A stretch of DNA of 61,304 nucleotides, taken from positions 1-61,304 of the forward strand of contig JAAZXW010000007.1 of assembly GCA_014239955.1 (NCBI GenBank), read 5' to 3'. Within the stretch, counting starts at the first letter, position 1. Each line of letters opens with the position of its first letter. Shown piece after piece: positions 2,228-26,495 of this stretch. A program made the translations under genes and the position numbers. Source of the DNA: Methanobacteriota archaeon (GTDB lineage Archaea; Thermoplasmatota; Poseidoniia; Poseidoniales; Thalassarchaeaceae). Below the pieces are notes generated by a model. That model saw nothing but the letters and a program-made list of their open reading frames with translations. It was not told the origin of the DNA and searched no databases.

Positions 2228-4321
2228 ATGCCCGAAGACGATTCAATTGACAGAGAGTCACTCACCTCAAACACAGTAGCGAAGCTCAGGGAGATATGCA
2301 AGGATCGGGGACTTCTCGTGTCGGGGAAGAAATCTGTACTGGTTGATAGGATCCTGGAAGATGCCGGGATTGTCAAAGATTCCACCGAGACTCCCGAAGA
2401 TGAATCGTGGGACGAGGACGACGCTCTCGTAGTTGACGACGACCTCCCGGATACACGTGAGAAGGTGGACGAGGTACTTTCGAGGATTGGAGGGGTCGTA
2501 GAGGCCGAGATCGTAGAGGCCGAGGTCATTACTCCCGAACCCGAGGAATCTCCGGCAGCTCTAGAACCCATGATCCTTGGTGAGGACGATCAACCGTCTT
2601 TGGTCATTTCAATGCCAACGATTTCTTCGTTGGGAGACAGATGGAAGGCTGTGGTCGCCATTCTACTTGTGACAATCCTCGTCGGTGCCACTGCTACGGT
2701 TTTCCTACAGAGGAGTTCCGGATTCACTGTCTCAAAATTGAGATTCGGAGAGAGCATGGACTTCCAGGTCATCGGCTCTAGCCTCAGCATCAATGGTGAG
2801 GAGATGCTCAGTCTAGTTAGAGACTCCAGTGGCGGCATCTTGGATCCGGCCTGCGGAGAATTCTCAATGGAAATGGATGGCACGGGCACGGTTCTGGTTT
2901 CAGATGGGCCTGATTCGGGTGCGGTAAGCACCACCGATAGTCTAGGGAGGACAGGATTCCTTTCTGCTGAGAAGAGTATTAGTCTGGATCTTGACGTTGA
3001 CTTCGAGGGCAGGACTTGGAGAGACGATGCTCAAACCGACTGTGGAAACATACGATGGGTAATGTCAGGCAACGATCTGTTGATCGACTCGACTAGTTGG
3101 GTGGAGCTGGAGAAGACCGAGGTGAAGAGGACCCACACATCGATTTCCTTCAGTGATGTAGACTCAGTGACTACTAATCTCAGAGTCGTGACTTATGATG
3201 CTGGAGGACTCGGAGGATTGGCAGCGCTTCTCCCCACCCTCTCTTTCCCCATGACCCCAATCGAGCTTCATGACTTCTTTGGAGATGCTGTAATCAAGGA
3301 GGGGGCAAGGTCCTCAGACCCTGATTTGAATTGGAACTCAGACTGGAATTGGGAGGTGAAGAAGGAGTTCAGGGATAATACTCATGGCCTCGTTTATCCA
3401 ATTTTCCTAGAACACGAAGAAATCGGAAGGTGTTACGGGCACGCAACTATCCAAATCTATGTGAAGAGCGACAGCGCATGGCCAGTCAAGCAGATGTCTG
3501 ATATCCTTCTCGACAAGGACTTGCAGACTAAGGATTGCGATTTCCTTGTTAGTTCTCTGTCCGATGAGCTTCTGCCCCAGGGGACACTGTCCATTACCAC
3601 GTCATTCTCACGCACAGATTCGTCCCATGGTAGTCGTGCTATTGACTGGGAAAGAAACTACATTGGGAGTCCCACTGATGGTGAAGATAGGCCTGGGACC
3701 TCTACCAAGAGGAACTGGGTCGATTCCATGTGGGACGAATCGGATATTAGACAGTTTGACCTCGAAGAGGCAGTCACCTGTCTGAAGTCCAACCATCCAA
3801 ACACACAGGCAACCCAGGCCCTCGATTCTGGAGGTTACATTTGGCGGTCATATTGGTCCAGAACAACTGGGGAGGGGGAGTGGAACATGTCTTGGGTGGA
3901 TGAAGACGATGACTCTGGTTGGTTGGTTCTAAGGAGATCTTCCGAGGGTTGCGAGGTAATCTCAACAGGCTCGAACAATAGAGGCGATGTTTCATGGAAT
4001 CGTGACTCAATTCCATCCACTCAGACGATGTCACTATTGGAACAGAGAATCCTAAGCCCCGGCAGATACCCGGACCTCTCTCAGTTCATACAATCCGGAG
4101 ATTCTTGGAATTTGGAAGCAGAGGTGGGCTACAGGCTTTCTGTAACTGAGGATAACGAATTACTGAATTTCCTACCTGGAGACCTTGGAGATGGGAAGGT
4201 AACCATGACTGCAGCTAGGGAATGGGAAGACAATGGCAGAGATAAGTCACTAGACTTGGCAATGGATGCAGAGATTGGCGAGATGATGTTCTGGTATCTC
4301 ATCGACAGTCCCACCAGCTAA
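2228..4321 (+). CDS. SAP-domain protein with one membrane anchor and a large external domain
   Basis: A 697-residue protein of unknown function. Residues 12-46 (VAKLREICKDRGLLVSGKKS and onward) form a clear SAP helix-extension-helix motif, a small DNA-binding fold. A very acidic linker follows (50-130), containing a short duplication of VEAE. One hydrophobic helix at about 140-160 (WKAVVAILLVTILVGATATV) is followed by about 535 residues rich in Trp, Asp and Ser with scattered cysteines, which look extracytoplasmic. The expected topology puts the SAP domain in the cytoplasm and the bulk outside. It lies 69 bases upstream of a ParA gene on the same strand, suggesting a link to chromosome or surface positioning. 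I recognise no family for the external part. Confidence 0.75.
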   Translation: MPEDDSIDRESLTSNTVAKLREICKDRGLLVSGKKSVLVDRILEDAGIVKDSTETPEDESWDEDDALVVDDDLPDTREKVDEVLSRIGGVVEAEIVEAEVITPEPEESPAALEPMILGEDDQPSLVISMPTISSLGDRWKAVVAILLVTILVGATATVFLQRSSGFTVSKLRFGESMDFQVIGSSLSINGEEMLSLVRDSSGGILDPACGEFSMEMDGTGTVLVSDGPDSGAVSTTDSLGRTGFLSAEKSISLDLDVDFEGRTWRDDAQTDCGNIRWVMSGNDLLIDSTSWVELEKTEVKRTHTSISFSDVDSVTTNLRVVTYDAGGLGGLAALLPTLSFPMTPIELHDFFGDAVIKEGARSSDPDLNWNSDWNWEVKKEFRDNTHGLVYPIFLEHEEIGRCYGHATIQIYVKSDSAWPVKQMSDILLDKDLQTKDCDFLVSSLSDELLPQGTLSITTSFSRTDSSHGSRAIDWERNYIGSPTDGEDRPGTSTKRNWVDSMWDESDIRQFDLEEAVTCLKSNHPNTQATQALDSGGYIWRSYWSRTTGEGEWNMSWVDEDDDSGWLVLRRSSEGCEVISTGSNNRGDVSWNRDSIPSTQTMSLLEQRILSPGRYPDLSQFIQSGDSWNLEAEVGYRLSVTEDNELLNFLPGDLGDGKVTMTAAREWEDNGRDKSLDLAMDAEIGEMMFWYLIDSPTS

Positions 4322-4390: not shown

Positions 4391-5344
4391 ATGACCTCCA
4401 CTGATGGTGACGAAGAATTGCCGGAAGTAGGTGAGGCGCCACTGATAATCGACGTAGAATTCTTGGAGGAGGAAGACGAAAACCTCGCTCAACATATCGA
4501 TTCGCCCGAGGAGATTAGTGCAACAAGGTCGCGGAGTCCGATGGAGCTCCCGCTTTCACTACCAACACCCCAAGGGCGCGCAAGGGTCGTTACAGTAATC
4601 AACCAGAAGGGCGGTGTCGGGAAGACTACTACAGTCATCAACATCGCATCCCAACTTGCCTTGAGGGGATTCAGGGTTCTTGTTATCGACTCAGATTCCC
4701 AGGGGAACTGCGCCACCGGACTCGGGGTGGATAAGAGCAGGGTCCGGACGACTACAAGAGACCTGATTCTAAGGCCGGAGACCGCAGTCGACTCTCGGCA
4801 CGCGACAGCAGTGGATAATCTGCACATTATAGTCGGAGACAGGAGTCTGATTGGATTGGAGCAGGAGATGATGAGGCAACTTGGAAGGGAGAAGAGGATG
4901 AAGGAGGCACTCGACCCTCTCCTTGCTCATTACGACCTTGTACTGATTGACACTCCCCCTTCCCTGGGCCTGGTGACGATCAATGCATTGGTGGCCTCTG
5001 ACGGGATACTAGTTCCGGTTCAGACTGAATACTTCGCATTGGAGGGGTTGGCCCTTCTGGCTGGAACAATTAGGGAGGTCAGGAGTCTGCTCAATGATAG
5101 ACTGGGAGTCGATGGGGTCCTTCTAACCATGCACTCGCAGACACTTCTGAACAAGCAGGTTGCAGGAGAGGTTCTGGCAAACTTCCCTGACCTAGTTGTC
5201 AGGCCAGCGATTAGGAGGAATGTCAGGTTAGCCGAAGCACCAAGCCACGGAGTCCCAATACACCTCCATGACCCTGCCAGTGCCGGTGGTAAGGACTACC
5301 AGGCAATAGCCACAGAATTGCAGATTCGTTGGGGTCTGTCGTAA
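4391..5344 (+). CDS. parA: ParA/Soj-family ATPase
   Basis: Deviant-Walker ATPase of the ParA/MinD superfamily, which positions DNA or protein cargo through ATP-dependent dimerisation. The protein is 317 residues with a 60-residue acidic N-terminal extension. The deviant Walker A KGGVGKTT has the signature lysine at 73 and the P-loop lysine at 78. It is followed by IDSDSQGNCATGLG and LIDTPPSLGLVTINAL (Walker B and switch). The C-terminal AIRRNVRLAEAPSHG is typical of Soj-like ParA. The acidic extension is unusual for ParA. The next reading frame begins one base after the stop codon and opens with a ParB-like peptide. No complete parB gene follows. Confidence 0.92.
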   Translation: MTSTDGDEELPEVGEAPLIIDVEFLEEEDENLAQHIDSPEEISATRSRSPMELPLSLPTPQGRARVVTVINQKGGVGKTTTVINIASQLALRGFRVLVIDSDSQGNCATGLGVDKSRVRTTTRDLILRPETAVDSRHATAVDNLHIIVGDRSLIGLEQEMMRQLGREKRMKEALDPLLAHYDLVLIDTPPSLGLVTINALVASDGILVPVQTEYFALEGLALLAGTIREVRSLLNDRLGVDGVLLTMHSQTLLNKQVAGEVLANFPDLVVRPAIRRNVRLAEAPSHGVPIHLHDPASAGGKDYQAIATELQIRWGLS

Positions 5345-5345
5345 T

Positions 5346-6323
5346 ATGGTTAGAAGCGGACTGGGCAGAGGCCTGGAGGAGATATACTCCAGAACCGAGG
5401 GTCCCGACCTATCCTCATTCGTAACTGAGGGAGTGATGTCGGACTCTCCTAGGGAGGCGGTTATTTGGATGATATTCGGCAGCTTCTGCTTTGGAACAAT
5501 GAATGCTCTGGTCAAGTGGACGAGTGATCATGCTGATGTGTGGATGATAATCATGGTCAGATCAGCGGTGATCGCCTTTGGAGTGGCTACGTTCGCAGCA
5601 AGCCGCGGTATCAGTCTGAAAATCAATGACAAGAGGACAATGCTTCTCAGATGCTCCCTCGGCCTTCTAGCGATGATTATCTACTTCACCGCTCTCGGTA
5701 GGATCCCGATAGGGCAGGCAGTGGCCCTCCAGTATACGGGACCCATATTCGTAGCACTGCTTTCGGGAAGGATTCTGGCTGAACGAGTCTCATTCGTAGT
5801 CGTTGGGCTTGTCATGACTGCATTCACTGGAATTGTCCTGATAGTCTCCCCGGAACTTGGTAGCATCGAGCCAGATGCCCTTTTGGCCCTCGGATCCGGA
5901 TTCTTCGCCGCTCTGGCATACATGTACGTCAGAGAACTCAGGAAGACGGACTCACCTGCTACTGTAGTGTTCTGGTTCGCCGCCTTCTCTGTGTGCGGGA
6001 GCATCATCCAAGCCGCCCCAGATATCCCCTCCCTGGATTCCAAAACTATTGCTTCTCTAGTTGGAGTGGGCATTGGAGCGGGAGGGGGCCAGATCGGAAT
6101 CACAATGGCGTACCACAAGGCGAATGCCGCTTGGGTCAGTGCCTTCTCCTACCTCACTGTAATCGTAGCCACGTTCTACGGCTTCGCAATTTTCGGTGAG
6201 ACCCTCACTCACGCAGACTGGGCCGGGGGCATCCTCATCGTTGGATCAGGAGTGGCATTGGTGTTCTCAGTCCCCCAGGAGGGCCCCTCACAACAGACCA
6301 AACCCTCACGAGACGCTTCCTAG
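5346..6323 (+). CDS. DMT/EamA-family permease with ParB-like N-terminal peptide
   Basis: Membrane protein with about ten hydrophobic helices in two EamA repeats, typical of the drug/metabolite transporter superfamily. The substrate is not predictable. The frame opens one base after parA with MVRSGLGRGLEEIYSR. This closely resembles the N-terminal GLGRGLxxL peptide by which ParB/Spo0J proteins stimulate the ParA ATPase. The transporter proper begins near the in-frame ATG at 5436 (MSDSPREAVIW), which has GAGG a few bases upstream. So either the 30 extra residues are translated as a fusion, or a tiny ParB-like leader and the transporter are made from one frame by two starts. It overlaps the convergent lipoprotein gene by 18 bases. 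Confidence 0.85.
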   Translation: MVRSGLGRGLEEIYSRTEGPDLSSFVTEGVMSDSPREAVIWMIFGSFCFGTMNALVKWTSDHADVWMIIMVRSAVIAFGVATFAASRGISLKINDKRTMLLRCSLGLLAMIIYFTALGRIPIGQAVALQYTGPIFVALLSGRILAERVSFVVVGLVMTAFTGIVLIVSPELGSIEPDALLALGSGFFAALAYMYVRELRKTDSPATVVFWFAAFSVCGSIIQAAPDIPSLDSKTIASLVGVGIGAGGGQIGITMAYHKANAAWVSAFSYLTVIVATFYGFAIFGETLTHADWAGGILIVGSGVALVFSVPQEGPSQQTKPSRDAS

Positions 6324-7316
6324 GGATTGGATGGTAATCGTTCCTCCCATGTTTGCATGGTTCTGGCAGTAGTAGTACAGAGTGTCAGGAGCATCCAGAG
6401 GAACTGTGAATGTCAGCAAACCGTCTGAGCCCTGGCTTCCCGTGTATGTCACGCCACCTGTGTACTGGGTGCCTCCTCCGTGAGTCCCATCGCTACTGGA
6501 GGACAGCCTCAGAGGGTGAGGGGAGTTGCTAGAAGCAGACTGATCAAAAGTATAGGTGAAGCCTCTGTACAGGGTCACATCAGCCTGTAGAATTGAATCG
6601 ATGTAGAACTTCATTCCTGAGACTGTTATGTCCATCTCCATCACTACGGGCACCGAACCATCACCCCCGTCTTCTCCAGCAGGGCCCTCTGGGCCCTCTG
6701 GCCCCATCTGGCCATCAGACCCCGTATCGCCATCAGCGCCGTCCGATCCGGGAGAACCCTGTGGTCCAGGAGATCCCTCTGGGCCTGAGATATTCCCTAG
6801 ATCGACCCACTTAGAACCACTCCAGACATGGATGTGTACAGTTGAGTTTACCATGAAAGCGTCCCCAGAGTTTCCGATGTATATTTCCCCGAGATCAGAA
6901 GTCTCTTCAACGGTGCCAATAACCGAGAATGAGGTTCCATCTTCCCCAGCCGGACCCACTGGGCCCTGTGCCCCGTCTGCCCCAGCCGGACCCGCTGGGC
7001 CCTGTGCCCCGTCTGCCCCAGCCGGACCCGCTGGGCCCTGTGCTCCCTCCGATCCCGTCAGATCAATCAATTCCCACGAACCGCCGGAGCAGGCTTGGAA
7101 TCCTGACTCATAGGCAACATAGTACAGTCTGCCATCTGTCGAGGAATCGCAGACAGGTAGGTCGGACGAACTCTGCACTAGGAAAACGTTCCAATCCTCA
7201 AGAGCACCGGGTTCCTCCTCCAAATCGTCATCGGTCCCCGAGCAACCCGACAGGGCAGAGGCAGTCATCAGTAGGGCTAGTAGAATCGCCAAGACGTTCT
7301 TTCTGGTACTCTTCAT
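6306..7316 (-). CDS. Lipoprotein with collagen-like repeats and a C-terminal cupredoxin-like domain
   Basis: Predicted secreted, lipid-anchored protein of 336 residues. The ATG at 7316 gives MKSTRKNVLAILLALLMTAS and then the lipobox LSGC. Two collagen-like Gly-X-Y tracts lie at about residues 88-127 and 178-220, separated by a short folded insert. The last 105 residues resemble a plastocyanin-type cupredoxin: a His in SPHPLRLS (about 267) and the cluster YYCQNHANM (Cys317, His320, Met323) have the C-x2-H-x2-M spacing of a type 1 copper site. A role in copper binding or electron transfer at the surface is an inference. An earlier in-frame start at 7349 would add 11 residues before the signal peptide and is less likely. 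Confidence 0.85.
   Translation of the reverse strand: MKSTRKNVLAILLALLMTASALSGCSGTDDDLEEEPGALEDWNVFLVQSSSDLPVCDSSTDGRLYYVAYESGFQACSGGSWELIDLTGSEGAQGPAGPAGADGAQGPAGPAGADGAQGPVGPAGEDGTSFSVIGTVEETSDLGEIYIGNSGDAFMVNSTVHIHVWSGSKWVDLGNISGPEGSPGPQGSPGSDGADGDTGSDGQMGPEGPEGPAGEDGGDGSVPVVMEMDITVSGMKFYIDSILQADVTLYRGFTYTFDQSASSNSPHPLRLSSSSDGTHGGGTQYTGGVTYTGSQGSDGLLTFTVPLDAPDTLYYYCQNHANMGGTITIQSLGSVS
6947..7054 (-). repeat. Three tandem copies of a 36-bp unit inside the collagen-like gene
   Basis: Near-identical 36-bp units begin at 6947, 6983 and 7019. Each encodes 12 residues of the form GPAGPAGADGAQ. The copies are contiguous with no spacers, so this is an in-frame minisatellite able to change copy number, not a CRISPR. 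Confidence 0.85.
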
Positions 7317-7345
7317 GAGTTCTCGGGAATCTCCCCGATACTTAA

Positions 7346-8035
7346 TCAATCTCGGAAATCCGAGACCTCTTCTAGTCTTTTTCTCATCAAGTCAGGTACT
7401 CTGGCTCCCTCTGCAGGATACCCGACCGGGAGGAGGAGCATGGCGTGCTCGTGCTTCGGTCTCTGGAGTATGTCCCTCAGGAACCCCATTGGAGAGGGCG
7501 TGTGGGGGAGTGTAGCCAGACCCATGTTGTGAACTGCTGAGATGAACAAACCTGCTGCGATCCCGCAAGACTCCTGTGAATAGTATGTGGGTGCCAAATC
7601 ACCCCCTCTTTCCCTCTTCGAGTGTCTGAAAAGAACGATCACCCATGGCGCATCAGTGATATGCTCCTTCACATAGTCGGTCCCTAAAGGGGCCAGTACC
7701 TCTTCCCACTCATCGGGCATCCTATCCTCGTAGAACCTAGTCTCCTCGCCCTCGGCCTCCTCGCGAATCCTTGTCTTCAATTCCTTGTTCGAGATTGCCA
7801 CAAATGTCCATGGCTGTAGATGGGCCCCAGAAGGGGCAGTGCTTGCAGTCTTGATTGCGAGTTCAATCAACTCGCGTGGCACCTCACGGTCAGAGAAGTT
7901 CCGAGTTGTTCTCCTACTGTCCATCTGCTCGTAGAAAGAGCGTGCATTGGAAAGCATAGCTTCCTTGTCGATCTCCACGAAATCCAGGTCAATGAAGCCA
8001 GGCTTCCTTTCGTCGCTAGCCATATTTCTGCTCAC
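7346..8035 (-). CDS. Nitroreductase-fold flavoprotein, iodotyrosine deiodinase-like
   Basis: FMN-dependent oxidoreductase of 229 residues, closest in sequence to iodotyrosine deiodinase (IYD), which reductively removes halogen from halotyrosines. FMN-site features are SRRTTRNFSD (about 40-49) and APSGAHLQPWTF (67-78). The IYD active-site lid trio is present with the same spacing as in the mammalian enzyme as I recall it: Glu98, Tyr102 four residues on, and Lys123 a further 21 on (VKEH). The C-terminal MLLLPVGYPAEGARVPDL also matches IYD. The GTG at 8035 overlaps the stop of the upstream gene (GTGA), suggesting translational coupling; an ATG at 8023 is an alternative. Whether it acts on halotyrosine or another phenol is not known. 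Confidence 0.85.
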   Translation of the reverse strand: MSRNMASDERKPGFIDLDFVEIDKEAMLSNARSFYEQMDSRRTTRNFSDREVPRELIELAIKTASTAPSGAHLQPWTFVAISNKELKTRIREEAEGEETRFYEDRMPDEWEEVLAPLGTDYVKEHITDAPWVIVLFRHSKRERGGDLAPTYYSQESCGIAAGLFISAVHNMGLATLPHTPSPMGFLRDILQRPKHEHAMLLLPVGYPAEGARVPDLMRKRLEEVSDFRD

Positions 8036-8649
8036 TCACGCCAAATCATCAAGGCTGCCATCGAGATAGAGGCCATTACCAGGGGGGCTGCAAAGCCCGG
8101 AATGAAACCTGAGGCCTCTTCCTGACATTCGGTCGAGGAACCACCCCAGGTCCCGTTGTCGTACCAGCAGTCGGACCATACCTTCCATCCGAAGCCAGTT
8201 TCCGGGACGCTGGTGGTGTTCCCATCCTCCCATTGAATCTCGATCTTCCAGTTGACGTAGGTCACTGTGTCCTCTGGAACAATAGTGCCCCTCCACTCGG
8301 TGCTAGAATGCTCGATCATTGAATTGGTCTCAGGTGGGTAGCAGACACCTGAGTTTATGCATACTTGGGTGATCCAGCTCACCACTGTCACATTATTTGA
8401 CGATTCGTCATTTAGGCCTACGGTAACTTCGAAAACCTCTCCTGCAGATGACTCACCGGGATGCAAAACAGTCTCGACTCCAGTCCCATCGACTGATGCC
8501 TCTTCATTGACTCCTCCCTGAGATGCGATTGCCGTAGACCCCATCGAGACAAGTAGAACTAGTGACAGGACGACCGTTCGCACGTATAGTCGTGAGTAAC
8601 CATCACTCATCAAGGGTGAGGCACTATGTCTCAAGATTCCAAAGGTCAT
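8032..8649 (-). CDS. Secreted surface protein with PGF-CTERM-like sorting tail
   Basis: Predicted exported protein of unknown function. A hydrophobic signal segment (RTVVLSLVLLVSMGSTAIAS) is followed by an Asn/Thr- and cysteine-containing extracellular domain. The C-terminus, GFIPGFAAPLVMASISMAAL followed by MIWRE, has the PGF motif, hydrophobic helix and charged end of archaeosortase substrates. It would be cleaved and lipid-attached at the membrane. The start could be the ATG at 8649, overlapping the upstream gene by 26 bases, or the ATG at 8610. It is the middle gene of a tightly packed minus-strand run with the PUA protein and the IYD-like flavoprotein. Confidence 0.7.
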   Translation of the reverse strand: MTFGILRHSASPLMSDGYSRLYVRTVVLSLVLLVSMGSTAIASQGGVNEEASVDGTGVETVLHPGESSAGEVFEVTVGLNDESSNNVTVVSWITQVCINSGVCYPPETNSMIEHSSTEWRGTIVPEDTVTYVNWKIEIQWEDGNTTSVPETGFGWKVWSDCWYDNGTWGGSSTECQEEASGFIPGFAAPLVMASISMAALMIWRE

Positions 8650-25592: not shown

Positions 25593-26495
25593 CTATGAGT
25601 CAGTTATCGCCTTCAGTCTCTCATCTGCTTCCTTGGCAAACTCCCAGTATGATTGGCTAGCCGGATTTGATTTGGTTGGCTTTTGTGCAATAACAATAGG
25701 TGCACCTTCCAGGGGCGACTCTGCGATTGCTACGGATCTGGGAATCTGCGTTTCAAACACTCTGTCACCGAAGTGCTTCCTGGCATGCGACGTAACGGTT
25801 TCGCATAACTTGCTTCTAGTCTGAACCATGGTCATAAGAATTCCCAATAGCCCAAGATCAGGATTTACTGATTTCTGCACCTCTCTAATTGCAGAGATTA
25901 GTTGACTCATCCCTTCCAATGCATAGAACTCGGCTTGTATTGGGATTAGGATACAATCTGCTGCACATAGGGAATTCACGGTAAGAAGACCAAGAGATGC
26001 AGGCGTGTCTATAATGATCACATCGAAGTGATCCATTGCCTCATTGAGGGTAAGTTTTAGCCTATTCTCTCTGCCAACTCTTGTCGCTAGATCCACTTCA
26101 ATCCCTGACAGATCCAGATCCGCTGGAAGAATCCATAGATTTCGAATTCCAATATGCTTGGGAGGGCCTCGAGTCTTCTCTGGGTTATTCTTCTTCCATG
26201 TAGCCCTCATTGATCTTGAGAGAATATCTGGTCCAAGCGTGCAATCCTCTAGTTTGAGAGAGTAATCACCTACTCCTCGGGCGAATAACTCGTTCATTGT
26301 AGGGCCAACTCTCCTCTTGTCAACACCGAACGTCGTTGCTACGTTTCCCTTGGGATCCATATCAACTAGCAGGACCTTTCTGCTACGAATTTCGTAATCT
26401 TCACTCCCCAGGGCCAGAGAAGCGGCCAGATTGACTGCAGTGGTTGTTCTCGAACATCCACCTTTGTGATTCACACAAGCTATCACTACGGCCAT
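25593..26495 (-). CDS. ParA-like ATPase with altered Walker A
   Basis: A 300-residue member of the ParA/Soj superfamily. MAVVIACVNHKGGCSRTTT aligns with the deviant Walker A KGGVGKTT, but the P-loop Gly is Ser and the invariant Lys is Arg (KGGCSRTT). The first signature lysine is kept. LLVDMDPKGNVATTFG, IIDTPASLGLLTVNSLCAAD and the C-terminal TQIPRSVAIAESPLEGAP are otherwise well preserved. The replaced lysine may reduce or change ATP hydrolysis. It lies convergent to the coiled-coil gene and 38 bases downstream of moxR. It could bind cargo through the coiled-coil neighbour. Confidence 0.88.
   Translation of the reverse strand: MAVVIACVNHKGGCSRTTTAVNLAASLALGSEDYEIRSRKVLLVDMDPKGNVATTFGVDKRRVGPTMNELFARGVGDYSLKLEDCTLGPDILSRSMRATWKKNNPEKTRGPPKHIGIRNLWILPADLDLSGIEVDLATRVGRENRLKLTLNEAMDHFDVIIIDTPASLGLLTVNSLCAADCILIPIQAEFYALEGMSQLISAIREVQKSVNPDLGLLGILMTMVQTRSKLCETVTSHARKHFGDRVFETQIPRSVAIAESPLEGAPIVIAQKPTKSNPASQSYWEFAKEADERLKAITDS

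Follow-up and report, generated by a model that had tools for sequence, protein, structure and literature searches.

What a ParA-binding-type peptide does at the front of a multi-pass solute transporter, and from where it was acquired, are the questions raised by a locus in the window, i.e. the whole 61,304-nucleotide stretch of archaeal DNA analysed here, which belongs to a genome assembly of 1.28 Mb that is 79% complete. A sequence-only reading of this DNA had proposed that the frame following parA begins with a ParB-like, ParA-activating peptide and then runs straight into a DMT transporter. Its coordinates and frame are exact: the parA stop codon TAA at 5342-5344 is followed by a single T and then by the ATG at 5346, and the frame, which opens MVRSGLGRGLEEIYSR, is uninterrupted to 6323. 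The N-terminus of the product reads MVRSGLGRGLEEIYSRTEGPDLSSFVTEGVM and continues into the EamA region, the match to which begins at residue 38 of the 325-residue protein (E 2.5e-25), with two stretches, both over the cut-off, corresponding to the EamA repeats. A ParB-type ParA-binding motif on a multi-pass transporter is borne out. The features of the locus are:

2228..4321, plus strand: SAP-TM gene, 697 aa, first gene of a conserved block; N-terminal SAP domain (E 3.6e-10), one hydrophobic stretch at about residues 139-161, large C-terminal region
4391..5344, plus strand: parA, ParA-type ATPase, 317 aa; AAA_31 E 1.7e-53
5346..6323, plus strand: transporter of the DMT/EamA type, 325 aa, bearing a ParA-binding-type tail at its N-terminus; EamA match
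5358..5387, plus strand: predicted ParA-binding-type motif GLGRGLEEIY, residues 5-14; from the columns over 46 fused proteins
5403..5420, plus strand: PDLSSF, another conserved segment of the tail (residues 20-25), which aligns with PFLxAY in a small protein described below
5436..5438, plus strand: ATG codon in the same frame (M31), given by the sequence-only reading as the other possible start

In 20 longer loci from 13 other genera a relative of the SAP-TM gene always lies upstream of parA, and the next slot is occupied by either a small protein (11 loci) or the transporter (9 loci); an ATP-grasp gene is found upstream in 18 of the 20, and a gene matching window 8032-8649 downstream of the slot in 19. 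The SAP-TM protein joins a SAP domain of the DNA-binding type to one membrane span (a single hydropathy peak) and a large outer part, and may tether the nucleoid to the membrane. The gene convergent to that of the transporter (6306-7349, minus strand) encodes a protein predicted to be secreted, which has Gly-x-y repeats of the collagen type and, as judged by eye, a cupredoxin-like C-terminus. A second ParA-like protein is encoded at 25593-26495 (minus strand), with relatives in most of 40 genomes searched; its Walker A motif is altered (KGGCSRTTT, the P-loop Lys being Arg) and the DNA-binding Arg is replaced by Ala. This protein may not behave as an ordinary ParA.

A parA ortholog (E <=1e-65) is present in 137 of 318 genomes of the order, and the frame after parA was read in 134 loci from 132 genomes, that of the window included (G216 and G227 have two parA loci each; the parA-bearing genomes G239, G263, G265, G267 and G274 were left out). 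The slot holds a transporter with the tail in 46 loci, a transporter without it in 37 and a small protein in 51. Sorting by pattern gave 46 tailed transporters, 36 tail-less ones and 48 small proteins with the tail, and four loci were placed by eye, namely G199, with a masked run, as a transporter without tail, and G289, G152 and G158 as small proteins. The tailed transporters span five genera, i.e. g1, to which the window belongs (23/23 loci), g12 (10/10), g13 (8/8), g11 (4/15) and g17 (1/8). Tail-less transporters are found in all loci read of g9 (10/10) and g14 (9/9) and in most of those of g11 and g17, and small proteins in g8, g10, g15 and g16 and, within f2, the other family of the order besides Thalassarchaeaceae (f1), in g6, g7, g20 and g21. 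The tail is, therefore, missing from 37 of the 83 transporter loci with parA retained, and its absence in these other genera speaks against an essential role. Since no standalone copy of the tail was found in those of 128 genomes sampled from the family that have a tail-less transporter, either ParA would have another partner there or the tail would be dispensable.

Where the tail is present, the columns of its GLGRGL core hold G in 44, L in 46, G in 46, R in 44, G in 40 and L in 46 of the 46 fused proteins, so that L-G-x-x-L is invariant; the ninth motif column is I, V, M or L in 45, the column of the fourth hydrophobic contact (I19) has Y, A, S or T in 44, and the P-D/N-L/I-S/T segment is found in all 46. 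Two tails (G010 and G021) have I or M in place of the basic residue. Within the genus of the window the tail is found in 23/23 loci and the basic residue in 21, and the motif, for which the sequence-only reading had asked an alignment of relatives, is indeed conserved in the close ones (tail and transporter body were aligned for 27 of the 46 fused proteins). A profile of the tail (30 columns, 31 rows) gave 74 matches in the 128 family genomes (E <=3.6e-9), all directly after parA: 73 are at the loci read and the last (G197) follows a parA cut by the contig end, the next best among the matches listed having E 0.029. None of the other three EamA proteins of the same genome has a comparable N-terminal start. 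In three g1 genomes (G012, G015 and G024; loci L015, L020 and L021) the same tail precedes a divergent transporter body, the whole proteins being 51-55% identical to the window transporter. In the AlphaFold2 model of the latter, residues 1-31 have pLDDT <50, with a short helix at 10-16, and are followed by a helical bundle.

Whether these residues are made at all depends on translation starting at 5346 rather than at 5436. In five groups chosen by the analyst, which comprise 26 of the 46 fused genes, dN/dS over tail codons 2 to 25 or 26 lies within 0.05-0.13 (0.07, 0.13, 0.05, 0.08 and 0.13), to be compared with 0.07, 0.11, 0.05, 0.05 and 0.10 for the transporter body of the same groups; the ten-codon motif core, which offers few sites, gives 0.06, 0.27, 0, 0.17 and 0.14. 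The linker that follows the tail is drifting in g13 (0.71 versus 0.13 for the tail), while that of the other four groups (0.03-0.14) is constrained as well; ParA itself, at 0.02-0.03, is under stronger constraint than the tail. Purifying selection on codons 2-25 argues that translation very likely begins before 5436. Furthermore, the start of the fused gene, chosen by a set rule, lies <=4 bases from the parA stop in 46/46 cases, and a pattern for the internal Met (M31 site) fits 19/46 proteins, which, along with the codon constraint, makes a start at 5346 much likelier, and the dN/dS values support translation of the tail.

Solved ParB N-termini read GLGRGLSALL (6t1f) and LGRGLEALL (1vz0), and another ParB start reads RLGKGLGALL, to be set beside GLGRGLEEIY of the transporter. 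With the ParA-binding peptide of ParB/Spo0J the tail shares N-terminal position, predicted disorder, the L-G-R/K-G-L spacing and a gene next to parA; unlike that peptide, it precedes a multi-helix transporter and no ParB_N/CTPase domain, a domain search of the protein having given EamA alone, with ParB_N (PF02195) absent. When the tail profile was run against PDB sequences, ParB/Spo0J chains took the last two of six ranks (5 and 6) with E 1.1, and the top match (E 0.065) was internal to an unrelated protein; by profile, the likeness to ParB is not significant, and a motif this short neither singles out ParB nor proves kinship. A true ParB gene nearby was considered and rejected, in that each of the PF02195 matches listed for 60 genomes (37 of the family) is on a contig other than that of this parA. 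The one strong PF02195 match (G021:C42) belongs to a parA-parB pair of bacterial type within an archaeal assembly, and is most likely contamination; the same is most likely true of the second parA locus of G216, where the small protein is identical to one from a different genus.

The ParA side of the predicted interaction can be examined through 8ray_B, the closest PDB chain to the window ParA (E 1e-57), which is taken to be the Myxococcus xanthus D60A construct, its identity and numbering being deduced from the alignment. In 54 ParA rows (the window and G037 are each entered two times) the signature Lys, the Walker A Lys/Thr, the D60 equivalent and the Walker B Asp are invariant (54/54), and the equivalent of R238, the basic DNA-binding residue, is R in 41 and K in 13. 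Leu6, Arg8, Leu10 and Ile13 of the tail correspond, by eye, to L11, R13, L15 and L18 of M. xanthus ParB, as given in PMC12462528. On the partner, the M. xanthus pocket sites L150, L152, L155 and L192 are L, L, I and L in the window ParA, the V116 and L187 sites are Q and E, and the site meeting R13 (Y81, E82, D110 and E117) reads R, D, S and E. Judging from these residues, binding of the tail to the window ParA is plausible; the contact made by its Arg cannot be the same as in M. xanthus ParA. In loci without the tail these sites of the ParA pocket show little decay. Coevolution of the pocket was dropped as support: Ile is found at the L152 site in 9/11 tail-less and 0/29 tailed rows, but I or V is also present in 7/13 small-partner rows, and the rows are related.

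The origin of the tail is suggested by the other occupant of the slot. The small protein (SAP-TM - parA - X) is soluble, about 130-165 residues long, and has the same start as the tail. The lineages that have it are the deeper branches of the ParA tree (midpoint-rooted, 53 rows), where the loci with a transporter fall into a single group (99/93) within the small-protein lineages. From this we infer that a transporter replaced the body of the small protein one time, the first ~25 residues being kept, and that the tail, with good confidence, goes back to a small soluble partner of ParA whose gene formerly occupied the slot. In the transporter tree (82 rows) the tail label needs 7 changes, 5 of them forced by well-supported branches; repeated loss of the tail would be the simple reading, the tree itself giving no direction. 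The alternative raised from the sequence alone, that of a remnant of a lost parB gene fused to the next gene, is partly right: the donor was apparently not a ParB with a ParB_N domain but a small partner of no assigned family, and no transporter relative was found beside the small protein in the 11 longer regions that contain it. The predicted structure of the small protein has pLDDT >90 over most of residues 51-157 and a low-confidence start with a helix at 18-23. With 28 small proteins no Pfam family matches more than 2 (best E 0.0014, HpHbR), with four there is nothing at the NCBIfam cut-off, the PDB sequence search gave no significant match (best E 0.2), and a fold search with the body gave none at E <=0.001. 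A function deduced from the fold was rejected, the best match being the C-terminal domain of T4 MotA (E 0.008, TM 0.37/0.48); type III secretion chaperones are also among the best fold matches, in topology only. The tail of the small protein has no match in 72,556 plasmid records.

The small protein also allows the motif to be followed where parA is missing. Its profile (from 28 of the 51) matches 78 of 389 genomes sampled from the phylum, all within this order; 59 of these have no parA ortholog, and 49 of the 59 were read. In none of the 49 stretches is parA just upstream of the small protein, the SAP-TM gene being there in 29 and the other 20 all being g2; several f2 genera (L259, L260, L262, L263, L265 and L267) lack parA between the retained SAP-TM gene and the small partner. 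By profile the small protein is kept in all 49, and the pattern LxFLxAY fits 48 of them, most reading R-G/D-L-D-H-L/M-x-E-Q-N before it. The strict motif L-[GAS]-R-[GNS]-L is found in 46/50 small proteins with parA versus 0/49 without, and a looser pattern in 46/50 versus 7/49, counts that are not independent and reflect 1-3 events (on the small-protein tree the parA-less label needs 3 changes, 1 of them forced). The 50 exclude G152, and the four strict misses are one unreadable X and G032, G156 and G158, which are real. It is, then, the half of the start equal to the ParA-binding motif of ParB that is gone where parA is gone.

Other known systems provide terms of comparison. For ParA/MinD ATPases that position protein cargos (bacterial microcompartments, flagella, chemotaxis clusters and the divisome), a disordered N-terminus with positive charge is the demonstrated or suggested means by which partner proteins act, and such partners may themselves belong to the cargo (PMC10241942). 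The transporter tail has a basic residue and predicted disorder and may bind the ATPase dimer; here, tail and multi-pass transporter are one polypeptide, and no solute transporter is among the cargos just listed. As archaeal SegAB is described, it too combines a ParA-type ATPase with a partner protein; the small partner of the present block has a conserved body of its own, for which there is no convincing Pfam, NCBIfam or fold match, and the transporter version has no recognised DNA-binding part. Compared with other EamA/DMT proteins, the two repeats and the helical bundle are shared, whereas the conserved N-terminal tail is missing from the other three of the genome. Literature searches found nothing related to the motif itself (by listing) and nothing joining ParA with transporter/adaptor or integral-membrane topics; no title among the matches listed concerned an EamA-ParA fusion or ParA in Poseidoniales, and nothing related was found on Thalassarchaeaceae chromosome partitioning, with no claim of a wider absence from print.

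The best explanation overall, to which we assign a probability of about 0.6, is that an inherited ParA-binding tail makes the transporter a ParA partner. What is directly seen is the sequence, its conservation and constraint, the shared slot and the absence of the motif in parA-less relatives. The frame would start at 5346, its first ~25 residues being a ParB-type ParA-binding tail derived from the small soluble partner, whose body would have been replaced by a DMT transporter gene, tail kept, in the ancestor of one Thalassarchaeaceae clade. The tail would be a disordered N-terminus on the cytoplasmic side, a location presumed from what is known of EamA proteins. On the nucleoid, ParA in its ATP-bound form would tether the transporter briefly and then let it go, so that the transporter would serve ParA as partner or cargo with no need for the DNA-binding part of a ParB; replacement, binding, ATPase stimulation and positioning are all steps that we infer. 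They are not equally probable: the tail probably binds ParA at present; a ParA ATPase with an integral membrane solute transporter as both partner and cargo, such that nucleoid-bound ParA would distribute, tether or gate the pump, falls somewhat short of an even chance; and positioning of the transporter by ParA is put forward tentatively, the odds being rather against it.

The tail could instead be a fossil, i.e. the first 30 codons of a small ParA partner, still translated, no longer used by ParA and serving only as translation start or N-terminal tail of the transporter while being lost. This would fit the tail-less loci that keep parA (all those read of g9 and g14, most of g11 and g17), the two natural tails in which the basic residue is replaced, and the changes in ParA at the site that meets R13. 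However, purifying selection on the tail is about equal to that on the body, L-G-x-x-L (46/46) and R (44/46) are the residues that ParA binding would need, the same tail stands before a second, divergent body, and in g13 the linker drifts and the tail does not, even if the linker of the other four groups is constrained too. The counter-evidence (tail-less parA loci, two tails without R, the altered fourth site and the weak PDB rank) is the reason why present ParA binding is rated no higher than probable and a fossil, though unlikely, keeps a substantial share.

A functional tail with a role unrelated to ParA, such as membrane insertion, transporter gating or contact with another partner of the SAP-TM block, would agree with PDLSSF being as conserved as GLGRGL and with the persistence of its counterpart LxFLxAY in the small protein where parA is gone; it is improbable given that GLGR itself disappears in the latter case and that the motif matches solved ParB N-termini. 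As for chance resemblance or a wrong start codon, the failure of the profile to single out ParB among PDB sequences is outweighed by the conservation and dN/dS values, by strong profile matches confined to parA loci in 128 genomes and by the rule-chosen start close to the parA stop in every fused gene, leaving it a very small probability.

Returning to a tail that makes the transporter a ParA partner, the finding points to a family of ParA partners without an assigned name. In the block formed by the SAP-TM gene, parA and the partner, parA, tail and partner body are each missing in some lineages, so that each role is testable. If the tail works, it would be a natural domain swap that uncouples binding to ParA from any other binding by the partner, and ParA/MinD positioning would extend to a solute transporter in uncultured marine archaea.
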